DNA from: Clostridia bacterium
GTDB lineage: Bacteria > Bacillota > Clostridia > Oscillospirales > Acutalibacteraceae
Length of the DNA stretch: 50,912 nt
Assembly: GCA_017546665.1 (NCBI GenBank)
Contig: JAFYSE010000006.1
Span: 1 to 50,912, forward strand
Direction of reading: 5' to 3'
Below are positions 1 through 7,548 of the stretch, one piece after another. Position numbers and translations under genes: made by a program. The notes under the pieces were generated by a model. That model made no database searches. It worked only from the letters and a program-made list of their open reading frames with translations, and had not been told where the DNA came from. Each line of letters opens with the position of its first letter. Positions within the stretch are counted from its first letter, which is position 1.

Positions 1-924
1 GGTTGGTCAGACCAGCTCGGTTACGGTATCCGTGTTCCTGGTTCAAAATTCACACAGGCAAGTGGTGTTCCACTTTACCTCTTCAAGCACACTCAGGAAT
101 TCTTCCCAGGTGACCTTGAAGACCTCGAAAGAAAACTCTGGCTCAATCAGTTCAACGGCGGTACAGCTGCTGTATTTATTGAACCAATCGGTCCTGAAAG
201 TGGTACAACTCCACTTGATTACGACTTCAACAAGGGCGTTGAAAGACTTTGCCGTAAGTACGGTGCTCTTCTCGTATTCGATGAAGTTGTTACAGGTTTC
301 CGTATCGGTATGGCTGGTGCTCAGGGCTTCTTCGGTGTATCTCCTGACCTTACAATCTTCGGTAAAGTTATTGCTGGTGGATATCCAGGTGCCGGCGGTG
401 TTGGTGGTAAGAAGCAGTACATGAAGCACCTTGGTGCAGGTCTTGACGATTCAGGTATGAAGGTTAAGAAGGCATTCACAGGCGGCACAATGACAGCTAA
501 CCCACTTTCATGCTGTGCAGGTTACTTCACTCTTGAAGAAATCGACAAGCAGAACGCATGTCAGAAGGCTGGCGAAATGGGTGACAGACTTACTCAGGGT
601 CTTCAGGAACTCGTTACTAAGCATGGTCTTCCATTCGTTGTTTGGAACGAAGGTTCAGTTTGCCACCTTGAAACAGTTGGTACAATGCACTACTCAATCG
701 ACTGGTGCAAACCTTGGAAAATCCCAGGTGTTCTTTCAGCTACAAGCGAAAGAAAGAAAGAAATGCAGTACATGGGCGCTGCTTACATGGCAGAAGGACT
801 TGTTACTCTTGCTGGTAGCCGTCTCTACACATCAGCTGCATACACACCTAAGATGATTGACCAGGCTCTTCAGTGCTTCGACAAGGTATTTGCAAACGTT
901 GCAGTTAAGCCTTCAGCAAAATAA
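1..924 (+). CDS. Class III PLP aminotransferase, glutamate-1-semialdehyde aminomutase-like (5' end outside window)
   Basis: The reading frame is open from the first base, so the N-terminus lies outside the window and about 307 C-terminal residues are present. The stretch VFDEVVTGFR (bases 277-306) is the PLP-contacting Asp motif of class III aminotransferases, and FGKVIAGGYPG (358-390) carries the expected Schiff-base lysine. The closest type I recognise is HemL-like glutamate-1-semialdehyde aminomutase, but these motifs are shared with many class III enzymes. The next gene on the same strand, 72 bp downstream, is a class II aldolase and no other haem gene is nearby, so a catabolic transaminase acting with the aldolase is at least as likely as haem synthesis. 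The class is secure; the substrate is not. Confidence 0.85.
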   Translation, partial: GWSDQLGYGIRVPGSKFTQASGVPLYLFKHTQEFFPGDLEDLERKLWLNQFNGGTAAVFIEPIGPESGTTPLDYDFNKGVERLCRKYGALLVFDEVVTGFRIGMAGAQGFFGVSPDLTIFGKVIAGGYPGAGGVGGKKQYMKHLGAGLDDSGMKVKKAFTGGTMTANPLSCCAGYFTLEEIDKQNACQKAGEMGDRLTQGLQELVTKHGLPFVVWNEGSVCHLETVGTMHYSIDWCKPWKIPGVLSATSERKKEMQYMGAAYMAEGLVTLAGSRLYTSAAYTPKMIDQALQCFDKVFANVAVKPSAK

Positions 925-938
925 TTCTTAATTCATTC

Positions 939-970
939 GGGTGGATGAATTAAACCTCACCCACCCTTTT
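939..970 (+). terminator. Weak hairpin between aminotransferase and aldolase
   Basis: GGGTGG (939-944) can pair with CCACCC (961-966), followed by only four T residues. A second small hairpin (ATTCAT/ATGAAT) overlaps its left arm. This could attenuate transcription between the two genes, but the loop is 16 nt long and the T-tract short. Confidence 0.3.
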
Positions 971-996
971 ACTAATTCTAAGTTGAGGTGACAGTT

Positions 997-2217
997 ATGG
1001 AAATAATGCAGGCAAAAGAACTCGTAATTAAAGCCGGTAAAGAACTTATTGAAACTGGCCTTATTGCTCGTACTTGGGGTAACATTTCTTGCCGTATCAG
1101 TGATACACAGTTCGTTATTACACCAAGTGGCCGTGCTTATGAAACTCTCACTCCTGAAGAAATCGTTCTTGTAAATATTGAGGACCTTGAATATGAAGGT
1201 GAAATCAAGCCTTCAAGCGAAAAGGGAATTCATGCTGCTTGTTACAAGCTTCGTCCTGAAATCGGCTTTGTTATCCACACACATCAGGTAAACGCATCTA
1301 TCGTTTCTGCTCTTGGTATGGATATTGAAAATGTTGAAGGCGAAAATGCTGAAATCATCGGCAAGAATATTCCTCTTGCTTCTTATGGTCTTCCAGGCAC
1401 AAAGAAACTCCGTAAAGGTGTTATTGAGGCTATTACTCGTTCAGATGCAAAAGCAGCGGTTATGGCTCACCACGGTGCAGTTTGTATGGGTGTTGACTAT
1501 GATGATGCGTTCAACGTTGCAAAACGTCTCGAAGATGTTTGTGAACAGTTTGTAATGGATAAATACACATCTCTTACAGGTACAGTTGCAGAAAAGCTTA
1601 CAGCAATCAATGACTATGTTGTTGAGAAGTTTGTGAAAAAGCCATCTTCAGTTGCTGAATTTGAGCCTTGCAAGAGTGAACGTGATGGTCCTGTTTTCAA
1701 CATTTCTGTTATTGACGGTGACGGCACAATTACAAGAATCGACATTGACACAGGTGATGTTATCGCAGGTGATGCAAGTAACAGTTCAATCGAACTTCAC
1801 CGTGCAGTATATAAGAAGCGTGATGATGTTAACTTCATTTATCACACTAAAGACCCTTATGTTGTTGCTTGTTCAAAAATGGGCAAAACAATGAAGCCTC
1901 TTATTGACGACTTTGCACAGATTGTTGGTGTAAGCGTTAAGAGTGCAAAATATGACCCAAACAACACATTAAAGTCAGCAAAGAAAGTTGTTAAAAAACT
2001 TAAGGGCAGAAATGCTGTCCTTCTTGAAAACAACGGTGCTCTCTGTGTTGCAGGTAGTGAATATGATGCAGGTGCTATTGAATTTATCACTAATAAGGGT
2101 GCAAAAATTCAGGTAAGTGCAAAGATGTTTGATAAGGTTGAGCCAATCAACCCACTCGAAACAAGAATTATGAATCTTGTTTACAGACTCAAATACTCAA
2201 AGCAGGCAGGCAAATAA
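997..2217 (+). CDS. Tandem class II aldolase/adducin family protein with degenerate second domain
   Basis: This 406-residue protein holds two class II aldolase folds; L-fuculose-phosphate aldolase types have one, about 215 residues. In domain 1 (about 1-205) the usual zinc ligands are all visible: Glu75 in KPSSE, His94 and His96 in HTH, and His159 in AHHG, plus the TWGNIS and TPSG phosphate-binding loops. In domain 2 (about 230-400) the matching positions read Glu266, His283, Lys285 and Asn346, so two of three histidines are lost. I chose ATG 997 over GTG 988 because GAGGTG at 985-990 sits 6 nt before the ATG. Likely a cytoplasmic aldolase or epimerase on a phosphorylated sugar, with a structural second half. 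It follows the aminotransferase and ends at a strong terminator. Confidence 0.85.
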   Translation: MEIMQAKELVIKAGKELIETGLIARTWGNISCRISDTQFVITPSGRAYETLTPEEIVLVNIEDLEYEGEIKPSSEKGIHAACYKLRPEIGFVIHTHQVNASIVSALGMDIENVEGENAEIIGKNIPLASYGLPGTKKLRKGVIEAITRSDAKAAVMAHHGAVCMGVDYDDAFNVAKRLEDVCEQFVMDKYTSLTGTVAEKLTAINDYVVEKFVKKPSSVAEFEPCKSERDGPVFNISVIDGDGTITRIDIDTGDVIAGDASNSSIELHRAVYKKRDDVNFIYHTKDPYVVACSKMGKTMKPLIDDFAQIVGVSVKSAKYDPNNTLKSAKKVVKKLKGRNAVLLENNGALCVAGSEYDAGAIEFITNKGAKIQVSAKMFDKVEPINPLETRIMNLVYRLKYSKQAGK

Positions 2218-2232
2218 TTACATAAAAAATTA

Positions 2233-2264
2233 CCCCGAAGGATTTCTCCTTCGGGGATTTTTTT
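2233..2264 (+). terminator. Bidirectional intrinsic terminator
   Basis: A perfect 10-bp stem, CCCCGAAGGA (2233-2242) with TCCTTCGGGG (2247-2256), is followed by ATTTTTTT on the plus strand. On the minus strand the same stem is followed by TAATTTTTT, so it can also end the SPFH transcript. Confidence 0.9.
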
Positions 2265-2284
2265 GGTTTTTCGCTTAACTTATA

Positions 2285-3076
2285 TTATTCTAATGAGTCC
2301 ATACTCAAAAGAATATCGCTGTCACCCATTACGGTTGGTAACTTACCGTCCCACTTGCTCCACTTAACGTAATCAACATAATCAGGTGATTCTGCAAGTG
2401 CATCCTGAATAAGCTTAATGCTTTCTGCCTCAGCTTCCGCCTGAGTAATCTTTTGCTTTGCCTCAACCTCAATACGAGCAAGGTCCTGTTCAGCCTTCAA
2501 GGCATTCTGCTGTGCAGTTTGTTTTGCTTCAACTGCTGCATTAAATTCTTCAGAAAAATCAAAATCTACAATGTTAAAAATCTCAACTGTAATACCATAC
2601 GGATTGATTTTTTCTGATAAGTCAACCTTAATTTGGTCGCCTACGGTCTGACGTTTTGTAATAAGTTCTTCTGCGGTATATTGAGCTGTTACAGCCTTAA
2701 TGCTTTCCTGAATTGCAGGAACAATAATAACTGAACCATAATCAACACCAACATTCTTATAAAGAGTTGCAGAAGAATCGTTATTTACGTGATAGTTCAC
2801 TGCTACCACATAAGAGATAATCTGCAAGTCCTTTGAGGACGATGAACCTTCTGTTTCAATCTTTTGTGTACGATTATTCATCTGTATTACCCTTTGAACA
2901 AAAGGCGCTTTAAAGTGCAAACCCTCCTCAAGAACTGTGTCTTCAACAGCACCAAATGTAAGTACAACACCTGTATGACCTGCCGAAACAACTGTGAAGC
3001 AAGAGATTGCAACACCAATTACAAGAACTGCACACACAGCAATAATTGCTATTTTTATAATCTTTTTTGTATCCAT
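2285..3076 (-). CDS. SPFH/prohibitin (band 7) family membrane protein
   Basis: A 263-residue protein with one N-terminal membrane segment (about 8-30) followed by an SPFH/band 7 domain (about 30-190, including VSAGHTGVVLTFGAVE) and an Ala/Glu-rich helical region (about 180-235, many AEAE and KQTAQQ units) typical of prohibitin oligomerisation. Band 7 proteins form ring-like oligomers on membranes and scaffold other membrane proteins or proteases; the partner here is unknown. GGAGG lies upstream of the ATG. It is transcribed alone from a consensus promoter through a structured leader of about 170 nt, which suggests control by transcription termination. The family is secure, the cellular role is not. 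Confidence 0.88.
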   Translation of the reverse strand: MDTKKIIKIAIIAVCAVLVIGVAISCFTVVSAGHTGVVLTFGAVEDTVLEEGLHFKAPFVQRVIQMNNRTQKIETEGSSSSKDLQIISYVVAVNYHVNNDSSATLYKNVGVDYGSVIIVPAIQESIKAVTAQYTAEELITKRQTVGDQIKVDLSEKINPYGITVEIFNIVDFDFSEEFNAAVEAKQTAQQNALKAEQDLARIEVEAKQKITQAEAEAESIKLIQDALAESPDYVDYVKWSKWDGKLPTVMGDSDILLSMDSLE

Positions 3077-3110
3077 TTCCTTTTCCTCCGTTTCCTTTAC
3101 TATGAAGGAG

Positions 3111-3250
3111 TTATAATAGCAAAAAACTCATACATAGCGAAAAACCATGTATGAGTCTCATTTACTTATGACACACCGAAGAGAAATTCTCTTGTCCTGA
3201 CGATGATGTCTCGCATTATTTTGTTTTGCGGAATTACTCCCTCATATCAT
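3111..3250 (-). promoter_or_regulatory. Riboswitch-like leader with competing antiterminator and terminator strands
   Basis: Read on the minus strand, the leader starts with ATGATATGAG (3250-3241) and continues GGAGTAATTCCGC, CGTCAGGACA (around 3201-3192) and an AAGAGA/TCTCTT hairpin. It ends with a terminator: ACTCATACAT (3156-3147), an 11-nt loop, ATGTATGAGT (3135-3126) and a T-run. The first segment can pair with the left arm of the terminator (9 bp with one bulged A), so the two structures are mutually exclusive. That is the classic architecture of an ON riboswitch. The GGAGTA and CGTCA segments recall the yybP-ykoY manganese class from memory, but the match is partial and no covariance search was possible. 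Confidence 0.6.
3126..3156 (-). terminator. Leader terminator upstream of the SPFH gene
   Basis: A 10-bp perfect stem, ACTCATACAT with ATGTATGAGT, is followed on the minus strand by TTTTTTGC. It lies between the promoter and the ribosome binding site of the SPFH gene, so it must be bypassed for expression. Confidence 0.75.
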
Positions 3251-3255
3251 TGTTA

Positions 3256-3284
3256 ATTATAACACAGTTAATTTTCCTTGTCAA
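3256..3284 (-). promoter_or_regulatory. Perfect sigma-A promoter for the SPFH gene
   Basis: On the minus strand TTGACA (3284-3279), a 17-bp spacer and TATAAT (3261-3256) match the consensus exactly. Transcription would start near 3249, at the first nucleotides of the structured leader. Confidence 0.85.
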
Positions 3285-3324
3285 TAAACGGTGAAAAATG
3301 TAATAATTTGTAATGAATATACAA

Positions 3325-4056
3325 TTATGCTACTCTGTTTGGAAGCTGGAATTTAGTATAATCATAATATCTGATAACAGTAAAATGTCTGAGGAATTTA
3401 TATTTCGCATTAAGAACATGCTTTGAAATATTTCCGTCACAGAATGAAATTACTGGTCCCATAAAGAATGCTGTAACAACTGTGCCGATTCCGATTGGTC
3501 CACCAAGAAGGAATGCACCCAAAGTACAAGCAAGGTCTGTAACAACTCTGCTCCACTTATATTTAAGCTTGATATTATCTTCCATCACAAATCCAAGTGC
3601 ATCGTATGGTGAAACACCAAGATTACAGTTGAAATAGAGTGATGCTGAAAGACTTAAAAGGAAAACGCCTACTGCCATACATATAAGTCTTAATGCTAAT
3701 GTTTTTTCCTGTGGAAGAATTTCTTCATAGATGTTTGTAAAGAATTCGCACACGTAACCAACGCCAACCATATTTACTACTGTGCCGACGCTAATAAGTT
3801 TTTTTGCCAAAACTGCTACAAGAATTAAAACTAATCCGTTTACGCACATTTGGAAAAATCCAAAGCCTATTCCAAGTTTCGCACTAACACTCATATTAAG
3901 TGCTGTAAATGGGTCAACCCCCATACCGGAATAAGAAAAAATTGAAACAGAAAAACCCATAAGAATAATACTCATAATCATTATTGTCATTCTTTTTGTT
4001 CCGTTTTTCTGTGAAATGATACTAATTGGGTTCATGCTTTTGAGAATTTGTGTCAT
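3325..4056 (-). CDS. YczE/YyaS/YitT-type integral membrane protein
   Basis: A 243-residue multi-span membrane protein with two similar halves, each with a G-x-G/S-P-[FY]-D/T-A-L motif: GVDPFTAL near residue 46 and GVSPYDAL near residue 146. This internal duplication is typical of the YczE/YyaS/YitT family, proposed to be transporters of unknown substrate. Its own promoter lies upstream (4119-4147) with a 5' UTR of about 55 nt holding a small ACAAAGG/CCTTTGT hairpin. No strong Shine-Dalgarno is seen at the ATG, so the exact start is uncertain. It stands alone between the SPFH leader and the DUF1015 gene. Confidence 0.8.
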   Translation of the reverse strand: MTQILKSMNPISIISQKNGTKRMTIMIMSIILMGFSVSIFSYSGMGVDPFTALNMSVSAKLGIGFGFFQMCVNGLVLILVAVLAKKLISVGTVVNMVGVGYVCEFFTNIYEEILPQEKTLALRLICMAVGVFLLSLSASLYFNCNLGVSPYDALGFVMEDNIKLKYKWSRVVTDLACTLGAFLLGGPIGIGTVVTAFFMGPVISFCDGNISKHVLNAKYKFLRHFTVIRYYDYTKFQLPNRVA

Positions 4057-4118
4057 TTGTATTGTATTCGCCTTTTCTTTGTATGTTTTTCACAAAGGTT
4101 ATGCCTTTGTTTTGTCAT

Positions 4119-4147
4119 ATATTACTATAAAGAAAGGTTTAAGTCAA
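4119..4147 (-). promoter_or_regulatory. Promoter for the YczE-like gene
   Basis: On the minus strand TTGACT (4147-4142), a 17-bp spacer and TAATAT (4124-4119), placed 60-90 nt before the start codon. Confidence 0.6.
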
Positions 4148-4243
4148 TAAAAATGCAAACAAAAAAATGCATTTCTACCTTTGGCACAATTTTACAAACA
4201 AGAGCATAAGTTTTTGTGCAAGTTGCCCAAAACAATAAAAGAA

Positions 4244-4266
4244 AAGACGGGAACAAATCCCGTCTT
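4244..4266 (-). terminator. Terminator of the SBP-VanZ-DUF1015 operon
   Basis: Stem AAGACGGG (4244-4251) with CCCGTCTT (4259-4266); on the minus strand it is followed by TTCTTTTATTG. It lies 15 nt after the DUF1015 stop codon. Confidence 0.8.
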
Positions 4267-4281
4267 AATACTTTATATTCT

Positions 4282-5523
4282 TTATGAGAGCTTGTGTATG
4301 AATAAGCCTGATAATAACTTTGGTTCAAACCAAGTTGATTTTGGCGGCATAACCTTTCCTGCATCTGCAATATCCATAAGTTCGTTAAGTGATGTAGGAT
4401 ACATAGCGAACGCTAATTTCATACCCTCTGCACATCTTCTTTCTAATTCACCCAAGCCACGAATACCACCTACAAAGTCAATTCTCTTGTCAGTTCTTGG
4501 GTCTGTGATGTTAAGAATCGGTGTGATAAGATTGTTTTGAAGAATTGAAACGTCAAGACATTCAACAGGGTCGTTTTCATTGATAAATTCGGCTTTTGCT
4601 GTAACCTTGTACCATTTGTTATCAAGATACATACCGAAAGCATGGCGTTCTTTTGGTGCATAAGGACTTTCGTCTGCTTCTTCAACGATGAATTTCTCGC
4701 CCATTTTTGCAATAAATTCTTCACTTGTATTGCCATTAAGGTCAGCCATTACACGGTTATAGTCCATAATTTTAAGCTGGTCACAAGGGAAAATAACTGA
4801 AAGGAAAAAATTGAATTCCGCATTCTTGTCATATTCACCCTCACCGCGTCTTCTCTCGCCTACTCTAACAGCAGAAGCACATCTGTGGTGACCGTCAGCA
4901 ATATAGAGATATGGGATTTCCTTAAATTCATTAACAAGAGTGTCAATAATAGCGTCGTCATCAATTACCCAAACAGTCTGTGCAACACCATCATCACTTA
5001 TAAAATCATAACAAGGTGCGTGAGTATTTTTCCAGCTCTCTGTGATTTCAGTTACTGTTGCATTTTCACGATGTGTAAGAAAAATTGGCCCTGTGTTAGC
5101 ATCAAGAGTATCAACGTGACGAATTCTGTCTGCTTCCTTATCAGCACGGGTAAATTCGTGTTTTTTAATTACATTATTGATATAGTCATCAACCGCAGTA
5201 CAACCAACAATACCTGTCTGTTCCCTGCCATTCATAATCTGACGATAGATATAGAGCATCGGCTTTTCATCCTGTTTGCAGATACCATTCACACTTAATG
5301 CTTCAAGGTTTTCCTTTGCCTTCTCATAAACCTCTGCAGAATAAATGTCAATACCCTGTGGCAAGTCAACCTCTGCCTTATCAACGTGCAAGAATGAATA
5401 TGGTTTATCCTTTACCATTTCTCTTGCTTCTTCTGAGTTCATAACATCATAAGGCAACGCACCAACCTGACTTGCGTATTCATCCTTTGGTCTTACTGCC
5501 TTAAATGGTTTAAGAATTGCCAT
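4282..5523 (-). CDS. DUF1015 family protein (COG4198-type)
   Basis: A 413-residue soluble protein opening with MAILKPFKAVRPKDEYASQV and containing the ALPYDVM segment and IADGHHRCASA, hallmarks of DUF1015. Proteins of this type are distantly related to the ParB/sulfiredoxin-like fold that includes ADP-dependent free serine kinase (SerK/SbnI). A kinase role here is possible but inferred only from that relationship. The DGHHR motif is intact. The gene overlaps the VanZ-like gene by 14 nt, so the two are translationally coupled; it is last in the operon, before a terminator. Confidence 0.8.
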   Translation of the reverse strand: MAILKPFKAVRPKDEYASQVGALPYDVMNSEEAREMVKDKPYSFLHVDKAEVDLPQGIDIYSAEVYEKAKENLEALSVNGICKQDEKPMLYIYRQIMNGREQTGIVGCTAVDDYINNVIKKHEFTRADKEADRIRHVDTLDANTGPIFLTHRENATVTEITESWKNTHAPCYDFISDDGVAQTVWVIDDDAIIDTLVNEFKEIPYLYIADGHHRCASAVRVGERRRGEGEYDKNAEFNFFLSVIFPCDQLKIMDYNRVMADLNGNTSEEFIAKMGEKFIVEEADESPYAPKERHAFGMYLDNKWYKVTAKAEFINENDPVECLDVSILQNNLITPILNITDPRTDKRIDFVGGIRGLGELERRCAEGMKLAFAMYPTSLNELMDIADAGKVMPPKSTWFEPKLLSGLFIHKLS

Positions 5524-5971
5524 TTTTCTTCCCTCTTTCTATGATATAAAGTACAATTTTTAATATAATAAACGACGCTGTTACACCGATTAAAGCGCCT
5601 GTGCTATCAACAAGAATATCGCTAATTTGAAATGCTCTTCCCGGAACAAAAATTTGATGAATCTCATCAGTAACTGCATAAAGTACTGTACCCGCAAAAG
5701 CAATTATTGGCGTTAATTTCATCTCCCAAGTAGCATAGGTTGCATTGAATATAAGTAAGGAAAGTCCCATAAACTCAAGACAATGTGCAACTGTACGAAT
5801 GCCTTCTTGTCCGAGTTCAATTCCAATTAATTGAAAAATTGCACGAATGAACGAGCCACTCAGATTTGCTGACTCCGTAGCCGTCTGTGCAGAAAGGCAA
5901 AATATCACAACCATACAAGCCAAAACTAATATCCAAGATATTACAACATATATTTTTCTTGATTTTGTCAT
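5510..5971 (-). CDS. VanZ-like membrane protein
   Basis: A 153-residue protein with about four membrane segments and the VanZ-like signatures FCLSAQTA near residue 24, HCLEFMGLSLL near residue 64 and TDEIHQIFVPGRAFQISDILVD near 101-122. VanZ-like proteins are membrane proteins of poorly known function; the founding member gives low-level teicoplanin resistance. Nothing here suggests a van cluster, so resistance should not be assumed. The start overlaps the upstream lipoprotein stop by 4 nt, and the end overlaps the DUF1015 start. Confidence 0.82.
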   Translation of the reverse strand: MTKSRKIYVVISWILVLACMVVIFCLSAQTATESANLSGSFIRAIFQLIGIELGQEGIRTVAHCLEFMGLSLLIFNATYATWEMKLTPIIAFAGTVLYAVTDEIHQIFVPGRAFQISDILVDSTGALIGVTASFIILKIVLYIIERGKKNGNS

Positions 5972-7548
5972 TTGCTCTGTCCTTTATAAAAGTAAATATT
6001 TGAACTGTCAACCGCAAAGTAAACGCCACTTACATCCTTTGCCGTTGAAAAGATAGTGTTTTCATTTATGATTGGCATAATTACTGCATTTTTCAATAAA
6101 TATGTCTCACAGTCAATAGCCTTATTAAATGTAGGGGCAACCTTGAACTCGTTATACATTCTATCATATTCTTCAGAAGCATAACGGAAAATGTTTAAAG
6201 CGTTTTCAGATTTAAACATACCAAGAAAATCTACTGAACGATTTGAATCAATGGACAACGGATATATTGCAGTATCATAAGAGCCATTTTTAATCGCACT
6301 ATCAAAATCCTTTTGTTCAACAACCGTTATAGCACCATTAAGCTCAACACCGATATTCGCCTGCCAACAGCTTACAATGCCCTTAGCTATATCTTCATAT
6401 TCTTCCGTACACAAAACATTTACTGTCAGTGTATCTGTTTTAAGTTCATTAAATGCAGTTTTAAGCTTTTCTCTTGCACTATCAACATTAGTTGCAAGTA
6501 CGATATTTTTATCCGTACTTAAATCAAAAGCAGACGGAACAAGACTCTTTGCCGGTGTTTCAGTTACTGACGTAAAATTGATGCTCTCCACAAGTCCCGT
6601 TCTTAAATTAATATTCTGCATTGTTTCCTTTGATAAATTGAAAACAAGTGCAGTTGTTGTGTTTTGCAAATAAACCTTATTGACCTTTTTGTTAAGGCTT
6701 TCCTTTGCCTCTGTTGATGATAAGAATGCAACAGAATAATTTTTACCATTAATCTTTTTCGCAATATCCTTCTGGTCAGAATTCACATATAGTCTTACAG
6801 ATGTTGGAGTCGCAACAAAACTACCATTATACTCCGTATTTTTAGAAAATCTTACAGACTCGTCTTCTGCAATATCGGACAAATAAAAAGCACCATTGGA
6901 AATAGTATATTTTCTATCAAGGCCATATCTTCCCGATGTCAAATTGAAAAATTCTTCATCGCAAGGGAATGAAACCGGCTGACTAAGTGCAAATAGGAAA
7001 TCGTCAGTTTTTCTTTCAAGGGTAATTTCCAAGGTATAGTCATTCACAACACGAATTCCGAGAGAGGATGCTGTTTCAAGTCCATTATGTACATTTTCAG
7101 CATTTTTAATAACACTTACCAAACCATAGTCCGGTGCATTTGTTTCGGGTAGAATTGCTCTTGTAATACCAAATGCAAAGTCGTGAGCAGTAACCTTTGC
7201 CTCAATTTCAGTTTCCTTACTTTCTATAAACGATTTGGCTGATTTTGAAATAAAATATTTCATATCTTCACGAAGATAGAATGTATAAACTAAACCATCG
7301 GTAGAAACCTTATAGTCCTTTACTGCACATTTTTGTGGCTCACCATTTTCATCAAGCTTGAAAAGTCCGTCAAAGGTATTGACAGCAACAATTTTTTCAC
7401 CCTGACTTTTAGCAATCTGCGGGTCAAAATGCTGTGGCATTTCAGTTATCGGGCATGACAAATAAATCTCCTCATCGTCCGAGCAACCGCTGAAACAAGT
7501 CAGAAATAATATGAAAGCTATTAAAATGCATAATATTTTCTTATTCAT
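5968..7548 (-). CDS. Family 5 extracellular solute-binding lipoprotein (oligopeptide type), orphan
   Basis: A 526-residue protein starting MNKKILC with a lipoprotein signal peptide ending in the lipobox FSGC (Cys near residue 21). The body fits SBP family 5 (OppA/DppA type): a Tyr/Asp-rich opening (FDPQIAKSQGEKIVAVNTFDGLF), DGLVYTFYLREDMKY near residue 85 and the usual two-lobe length. The ATG at 7548 is preferred over the upstream in-frame start because a GGTG ribosome site sits about 10 nt before it and the signal peptide then begins correctly. No permease or ATPase genes of this system are adjacent; the next genes are VanZ-like and DUF1015. It may serve a transporter encoded elsewhere or act as a sensor. 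Confidence 0.82.
   Translation of the reverse strand: MNKKILCILIAFILFLTCFSGCSDDEEIYLSCPITEMPQHFDPQIAKSQGEKIVAVNTFDGLFKLDENGEPQKCAVKDYKVSTDGLVYTFYLREDMKYFISKSAKSFIESKETEIEAKVTAHDFAFGITRAILPETNAPDYGLVSVIKNAENVHNGLETASSLGIRVVNDYTLEITLERKTDDFLFALSQPVSFPCDEEFFNLTSGRYGLDRKYTISNGAFYLSDIAEDESVRFSKNTEYNGSFVATPTSVRLYVNSDQKDIAKKINGKNYSVAFLSSTEAKESLNKKVNKVYLQNTTTALVFNLSKETMQNINLRTGLVESINFTSVTETPAKSLVPSAFDLSTDKNIVLATNVDSAREKLKTAFNELKTDTLTVNVLCTEEYEDIAKGIVSCWQANIGVELNGAITVVEQKDFDSAIKNGSYDTAIYPLSIDSNRSVDFLGMFKSENALNIFRYASEEYDRMYNEFKVAPTFNKAIDCETYLLKNAVIMPIINENTIFSTAKDVSGVYFAVDSSNIYFYKGQSK

Follow-up and report, generated by a model that had tools for sequence, protein, structure and literature searches.

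A candidate manganese riboswitch of the yybP-ykoY family upstream of a prohibitin-like SPFH gene in Clostridia

The prohibitin-like gene and its leader

The window analyzed here comprises 50,912 nucleotides (nt) from a Clostridia bacterium of the order Oscillospirales (contig JAFYSE010000006.1, GenBank assembly GCA_017546665.1). The gene of interest, at positions 2285 to 3076 on the minus strand, was predicted to encode a prohibitin-like SPFH/Band 7 protein of 263 amino acids (PF01145, E = 1.4e-36) and is preceded by a leader that is a candidate riboswitch, all features of which lie on the same strand. The best solved relative of the protein was prohibitin-2 (E = 1.7e-37), and prohibitins were followed by HflK/HflC and QmcA; the NCBIfam models for HflK and HflC scored the protein far below their cutoffs. 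Based on a terminator-like site at 2233 to 2256, the gene is probably transcribed alone.

A sigma-A promoter, TTGACA-17-TATAAT, was located at 3256 to 3284, with the -35 element at 3284 to 3279, the -10 element at 3261 to 3256, and a TG preceding the latter. A preliminary description of the locus, made from the sequence alone, had called this promoter perfect, and it matched the consensus at 12 of 12 positions. Scanning positions 1 to 6000 of the window at a threshold of 9 of 12 produced 14 sites compared to 16.6 in shuffled sequences, so sites at the threshold level were attributed to chance; the leader promoter was the only one of the 14 to reach 12, and the next best reached 10. Terminator-like sites in the scan numbered 13, compared to 4.3 ± 2.0 in shuffled sequences. 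An intrinsic terminator, a hairpin with a T-run, was found at 3123 to 3159, and its left arm contains CUCAUACAU (3155 to 3147). As the preliminary description had stated, this arm can also pair with a 5′ segment, AUGAUAUGAG (3250 to 3241), over 9 bp with one bulged A.

Between the promoter and the overlapping terminator lies an aptamer of approximately 98 nt. Its switch helix, P1, is formed by UAUGAG (3241 to 3246) and CUCAUA (3150 to 3155) and is extended to 3250 by AUG with the bulged A. Because the 3′ strand of P1 sits in the left arm of the terminator, the P1 and terminator states are mutually exclusive, as had been claimed. P1 is followed by the two sides of L1, GGAGUA (3235 to 3240) and GAGA (3156 to 3159, placed from the alignment of 18 leaders described below); P1.2, whose 5′ strand AUU (3232 to 3234) pairs with 3160 to 3162; the P2 hairpin (3212 to 3230), CGCA/UGCG in the window; and the P3-L3-P3.1 arm (3170 to 3210), in which L3 reads UCAGGAC (3194 to 3200) and the adenosine at 3198 is the putative Mn2+-sensing residue. 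The junction strand (3163 to 3169) contains no predicted P4 hairpin, and a predicted ribosome-binding site, CGGAGG, lies at 3085 to 3090. The preliminary description had seen only a partial resemblance to the yybP-ykoY manganese aptamer; this was an underestimate, as each of the elements P1, L1, P1.2, P2, P3, L3 with its sensing adenosine, and P3.1 could be placed in the window leader.

When the leader RNA was folded without the right arm of the terminator, P1 and three hairpins were predicted (z = -1.9; 8 of 200 shuffled sequences were as good); the single-sequence folding energy of this truncated leader is weak evidence. One of the predicted hairpins, GGA/UCC within GGAGUAAUUCC, lies outside the consensus structure and competes with L1 and P1.2. 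The whole leader gave a z score of -4.3, which was driven by the terminator, and the fold of the whole RNA was the terminator. The full minimum energy of the window leader was -37.0 kcal/mol, compared to -25.3 kcal/mol with P1 forced, which suggests that termination is the unliganded default.

The gene upstream of the leader (3325 to 4056, minus strand) was annotated as coding for a YczE-like membrane protein (Pfam DUF6198; the NCBIfam YczE model scored below its cutoff).

Conservation of the leader and model searches in two directions

A protein search produced 40 loci with relatives of the SPFH protein, and a pattern search of the loci collected by then yielded 18 distinct leaders. Seventeen precede SPFH genes, one in the window and 16 among the 40 loci; the remaining leader, at L014, precedes a membrane protein without a Pfam match. 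In a plain MAFFT alignment of the 18 leaders, made without reference to structure, GAGGGAGUA, CGUCA, CGG, and AGACUCAU were invariant or nearly so. Pair cells were paired in 94.3% of cases compared to 87.1% in shuffled alignments, changes on both sides were found at 11 of 28 pairs compared to 7.0 (2 of 500 shuffles as high), and the covariation score was 0.289 compared to 0.164 (0 of 500 as high). Further pair types were not in excess in this alignment (21 versus 21.9 in shuffles). P1 is almost invariant inside the SPFH set (five of its six pairs) and thus uninformative there; its covariation comes from the wider set of transporter-gene leaders described below. The preliminary description would have been refuted by an absence of covariation in relatives; covariation was found, and the comparative data argue strongly for the predicted leader structure.

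The promoter and terminator were also examined in 19 leaders, namely, these 18 and one found later (L195). The best -35/-10 pair upstream of each leader matched 9 to 12 of 12 positions, and a terminator overlapping P1 was present in 19 of 19 leaders, as well as in 92 of the 98 leaders examined across the order. When 59 relatives were searched at the DNA level, three clear relatives emerged (G030, G017, and G015), together with many short matches, a few of which were pieces of true leaders (G055 and G057). A terminator and an antiterminator alone are no proof of a ligand, and the leader could in principle be a plain attenuator or a protein-bound leader that senses no metal; the conserved unpaired L1 and L3 and the conserved multibranch aptamer make this very improbable.

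A covariance model, R1, was built from the 17 SPFH leaders and the L014 leader and was searched against 394 genomes of the order. E values for R1, and for the second model R2 below, are rough owing to a short calibration. At E ≤ 0.01, 100 matches were found in 95 of the 394 genomes. Downstream genes were collected for 98 of these matches, the window and G057 (both preceding SPFH genes) being already known, and were classified by sequence motif, by eye, and, for doubtful cases, by reading all frames. The motif script left 24 genes open, of which 8 were then reclassified by eye. The 98 genes comprised 54 P-type ATPases, 18 MntP proteins, 11 Na/Ca-exchanger types, 1 GDT1/UPF0016 protein, 4 CitMHS/ArsB-like proteins, 2 Na/Pi cotransporters, 3 Band 7/SPFH proteins (L195, L126, and L191), 3 flotillin-like proteins (L111, L114, and L168), 1 unknown (L099, which coincides with L014), and 1 broken fragment resembling a P-type ATPase (L160). 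Reading of all frames assigned L106 to the P-type ATPases, L157 to the exchangers, and L160 to its broken piece, and confirmed MntP at L125, L134, and L167; for every named kind, one or more examples were verified with Pfam. Among the flotillin-like genes, L111 scored above the Pfam Flot cutoff and L168 below it (22.3 versus 27 bits), while L114 was scanned for its Band 7 part alone. SPFH or flotillin-like genes were the targets of 8 of the 100 matches, the window and G057 included. R1 also matched 26 of 30 loci that had been located independently with RF00080, the Rfam yybP-ykoY model, 25 of them on the same strand, and in Escherichia coli its best match per locus fell in the alx and mntP leaders.

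The reverse search used R2, a model whose training set was restricted to 65 transporter-gene leaders (74 minus nine long, truncated, odd, or near-duplicate rows). A MAFFT alignment of these leaders placed P2 out of register in some rows and was set aside for a model-guided alignment, which leans toward the R1 structure, in contrast to the plain alignment of the 18 leaders. In the structure-fitted alignment of 65 leaders, 24 of 28 pairs varied on both sides, and the covariation score was 0.608 compared to 0.209 (0 of 500 shuffles as high); in a structure-fitted alignment of 98 rows, 25 of 28 pairs varied on both sides, a count reached by 11 of 500 shuffles, and the score was 0.670 compared to 0.223. 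Both-side changes occurred at four of the six P1 pairs in the 65 transporter leaders and at all five P2 pairs in this alignment and in that of the 18 leaders. The first P1.2 pair was AU in 15 and GC in 3 of the 18 leaders, and GC in 40, AU in 19, and GU in 6 of the 65. GGAGUA of L1 was near-invariant in both sets.

With R2, the window leader scored 69.6 bits (E = 1.5e-13 for 225 kb searched) and the next match in the window 13.3 bits; the model also recovered 17 of 17 SPFH leaders and the L014 leader. None of the 48 SPFH loci without a leader, 9 of them close and 39 distant, was matched by R2, and 46 of these had enough upstream sequence; L045 and L085, both distant, had just 3 and 137 nt upstream and were hence untestable. 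In E. coli, R2 found the mntP leader (23 bits, E = 0.013). The preliminary description had offered, besides a divergent manganese switch with a new target, an unnamed riboswitch class. A class unrelated to yybP-ykoY would fit the lack of any Rfam match above cutoff in the leader; the matches between SPFH leaders and mntP and P-type ATPase leaders in both directions, together with the overlap of R1 matches with RF00080-located sites, contradict it, and we give it hardly any credence. The same two-way matches support the divergent manganese switch.

The leader is therefore read here as a transcriptional Mn2+ ON riboswitch of the yybP-ykoY family, in the three-way-junction form found in this bacterial group, that would control the prohibitin-like SPFH gene, with a probability of roughly 0.86. 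The data show its anatomy, conservation, and covariation, the overlap of P1 with the terminator, and the homology to leaders of Mn exporters; Mn2+ binding, the direction of switching, and a part played by the SPFH protein in coping with manganese are inferred.

Family membership and likely ligand

At the gathering threshold, no part of the window matched any Rfam family above its cutoff. Matches in the leader stretch at relaxed thresholds (a microRNA, trpB, a small RNA, folP, and a small nucleolar RNA) were weak and were taken as chance. The leaders of 11 related loci likewise had no riboswitch match, in a search that did detect 5S rRNA and tRNA in other parts of the same loci. In 98 relatives, RF00080 matched weakly at three loci, all below its cutoff (L092, L093, and L094), and these shared the same P1, L1, P1.2, and P2 by eye. 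Also by eye, the L092 leader precedes the start of a P-type ATPase, and the L093 and L094 leaders precede MntP-like starts; L094 comes from the genus of the window itself, and its gene is Mntp by Pfam, via the overlapping locus L134. Among the 394 genomes of the order, 28 were matched by RF00080 at E ≤ 0.01.

Several observations weigh against assignment to the yybP-ykoY family or against control of the SPFH gene by such a switch. The check with the Rfam yybP-ykoY and other riboswitch models that the preliminary description had proposed returned nothing for the leader, RF00080 failing to match it even at E = 10 and having no match in the genome of the window, and the RF00080 cutoff was reached in 0 of 394 genomes of the order, those with mntP leaders included. 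The solved structures have P4 and a four-way junction, whereas the window leader lacks both and has a three-way junction, and P1.2 is missing from the predicted fold of the window RNA alone. Of the 30 RF00080-located loci, R1 missed 4 and placed one match on the opposite strand; its E. coli matches were nonsignificant on their own (alx, E = 0.72; mntP, E = 3.7), and R2 did not report alx. Finally, 9 of the 26 close SPFH orthologues lack the leader.

Since no genome of the order reaches the RF00080 cutoff, the miss is considered a limit of that model and not counterevidence. P4 was not treated as a defining feature, since it is also missing from mntP leaders within this order and from a Streptococcus pneumoniae member of the family, which a review (PMC9495176) describes without P4 or a four-way junction. 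Leaders of relatives in which P4 was absent by eye included those of P-type ATPases as well as those of mntP. The current RF00080 model thus appears to overlook a large clostridial branch, with R1 matching 95 of 394 genomes in which none exceeded the RF00080 cutoff.

Compared to the characterized yybP-ykoY RNAs (Lactococcus lactis yoaB, Xanthomonas oryzae, and E. coli mntP and alx), the window leader shares the P1 switch helix, L1 GGAGUA/GAGA, P1.2, P2, P3 with L3 and its invariant adenosine, P3.1, and a terminator overlapping P1, and leaders related to it precede Mn-exporter genes in the same order and in one genome that also carries an SPFH leader. It differs in lacking P4, in scoring below the Rfam cutoff, and in its prohibitin-like SPFH target. 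The S. pneumoniae mgtA Mn2+/Ca2+ riboswitch, likened to it by description and not by sequence, differs in having a P-type ATPase as its target. The clostridial mntP and P-type ATPase leaders (L094/L134, L092, L260, L116, and L199) have the same aptamer architecture, with L116 and L199 also sharing the GUCANNAC L3 of the window leader; they differ in their transporter targets and, for the most part, in an ACA form of L3.

In the Mn2+ structures, L3 reads UCA41AUUC in L. lactis and ACA48UACU in X. oryzae, and the adenosine binds Mn2+ through N7 (PMC6754395). In the 18 leaders, L3 is UCANN plus AC, with UC in place of AC in one; the C and A of L3 were invariant, with the aligned adenosine in 18 of 18. 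The SPFH leaders thus have the L. lactis form, and the X. oryzae form predominates among the transporter leaders of the order. This agreement at the L3 adenosine, and the presence of the same aptamer before an SPFH gene and a Pfam-named Mntp gene in one genome (G017) and before an SPFH gene and a P-type ATPase in another (G232), make Mn2+ the likely ligand by homology.

The same fold could instead bind another ligand, the SPFH leaders being a specificity variant for a different ion, such as Ca2+ or another divalent metal, or for a small molecule. Their target is not a metal pump, their L3 is unlike the ACA form of most transporter leaders in the order, RF00080 misses the window leader, and a review describes a response of the S. 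pneumoniae mgtA member to both Ca2+ and Mn2+ (PMC9495176). Yet the SPFH type of L3 (GUCANN followed by AC or UC) was also found before 8 of 52 P-type ATPases and 3 of 7 exchangers (called by motif), it is the type seen in the Mn2+-bound L. lactis structure (PMC6754395), and the sensing adenosine does not vary among the 18 leaders. A change of ligand is thus considered unlikely.

We infer that the manganese switch would act in the ON direction. Antitermination via P1.1 is described in PMC6754395 and, for the L. lactis RNA, in PMC11087558. Without Mn2+, the 3′ strand of P1 would be captured by the terminator, and transcription would end before the SPFH gene. With Mn2+ present, L1 (GGAGUA/GAGA) would dock on L3 (UCANNAC) around the metal and stabilize P1; with P1 held, the terminator would be blocked and the prohibitin-like protein made, perhaps to serve as a scaffold in membrane-protein quality control or in the handling of metal.

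Distribution of targets and possible role of the SPFH protein

The leader was present in 17 of 26 close SPFH orthologues (the window and L052 to L076), and L195, found through its RNA, is an additional carrier. It was found in none of 39 distant SPFH homologues (L028 to L051 and L077 to L091), 37 of which were testable, and the switch therefore appears to be confined to a single orthologous group instead of being a general feature of SPFH genes. In a tree of the orthologues, presence and absence of the leader were mixed, with 7 changes, at least 4 of which were forced by starred branches (33 of 500 shuffles were as low). At L055, L059, and L062, a promoter-like site was seen by eye near the start codon, with no aptamer between; the contrast of these loci with L058 and L073 is an apparent recent loss or gain of the switch among close orthologues. 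The same aptamer precedes flotillin-like genes of other families (L111, L114, and L168), the leaders of L168 and of the Band 7/SPFH locus L191 being weak (40.5 and 29.7 bits with R2).

At E ≤ 0.001, R2 had matches in 153 of the 391 genomes of a class-level sample. Genes were read for 71 matches, comprising 65 from the sample (among the best matches listed), two of which (L236 and L240) duplicate sites read before, and 6 sites in earlier genomes (L225 and L260 to L264). By motif, these included 37 MntP proteins, 19 P-type ATPases, 5 ATP-binding cassette (ABC) ATPases, 3 exchangers, 6 others, and 1 match without a gene. No SPFH gene was found among the 71, so control of the SPFH gene looks like a local invention and not a general rule.

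ABC-transporter ATP-binding subunits, called by motif, stand behind the same kind of leader in other Clostridia (L275, L280, L281, L296, and L299), and two aptamers in series (L269, positions 135 to 226 and 279 to 366; G450:C60) precede a single P-type ATPase gene. Unexpectedly, the leader at positions 135 to 231 of L261 precedes a Pfam OAD_beta membrane protein, the beta subunit of Na+-transporting oxaloacetate decarboxylase, and the same leader on the minus strand of L266 (1503 to 1596) precedes a reading frame similar to the OAD_beta gene of L261.

Mn2+ riboswitches are known mainly from the genes of metal transporters. A literature search found no link between a manganese riboswitch and flotillin or SPFH genes, within a coverage that did not extend to the founding yybP-ykoY papers, and the claim of a new target is limited accordingly. 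The RNA is best regarded as a member of a known riboswitch kind, with the interest lying in the unusual target and in the overlooked clostridial branch.

Work on Bacillus subtilis offers a possible connection. FloA, FloT, and FtsH are listed among the membrane proteins that copurify with the TerC proteins MeeF and MeeY, and a Mn riboswitch controls meeY itself (PMC10550928). FtsH acts with YqgP to remove MgtE, in a cleavage potentiated by high manganese or zinc together with low magnesium (PMC7231995). At L075, a gene with MgtE domains (Pfam) lies approximately 414 nt downstream of the switch-associated SPFH gene on the same strand, and similar reading frames lie downstream of the SPFH genes of L057 and L063, with a spacing of roughly 370 to 410 nt across the three loci. 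L126, which shares its contig with L076, has a Na/Pi cotransporter gene with PhoU domains behind its SPFH gene, and a separate aptamer precedes each of the two (L126 positions 196 to 333 and 1272 to 1377). The same genome has a third aptamer before the unknown membrane protein of L014.

The likeliest role for the SPFH protein would be that of a membrane scaffold helping to adjust transporters or membrane proteins under manganese load. A broader proposal, to which we assign slightly less than even odds, is that manganese sensing is coupled directly to SPFH scaffolds, forming a distinct branch of manganese homeostasis that was gained more than once (prohibitin-like in one set of Clostridia and flotillin-like in others), in which the scaffold would organize FtsH-type quality control or metal handling at high Mn2+ instead of pumping. 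If such a switch does act on SPFH and flotillin-like genes, membrane scaffolds, whose bacterial functions are ill defined, would gain a link to a concrete and testable signal. The leaders described here suggest that some gut Clostridia switch on membrane-scaffold proteins, in addition to metal pumps, when manganese is high.
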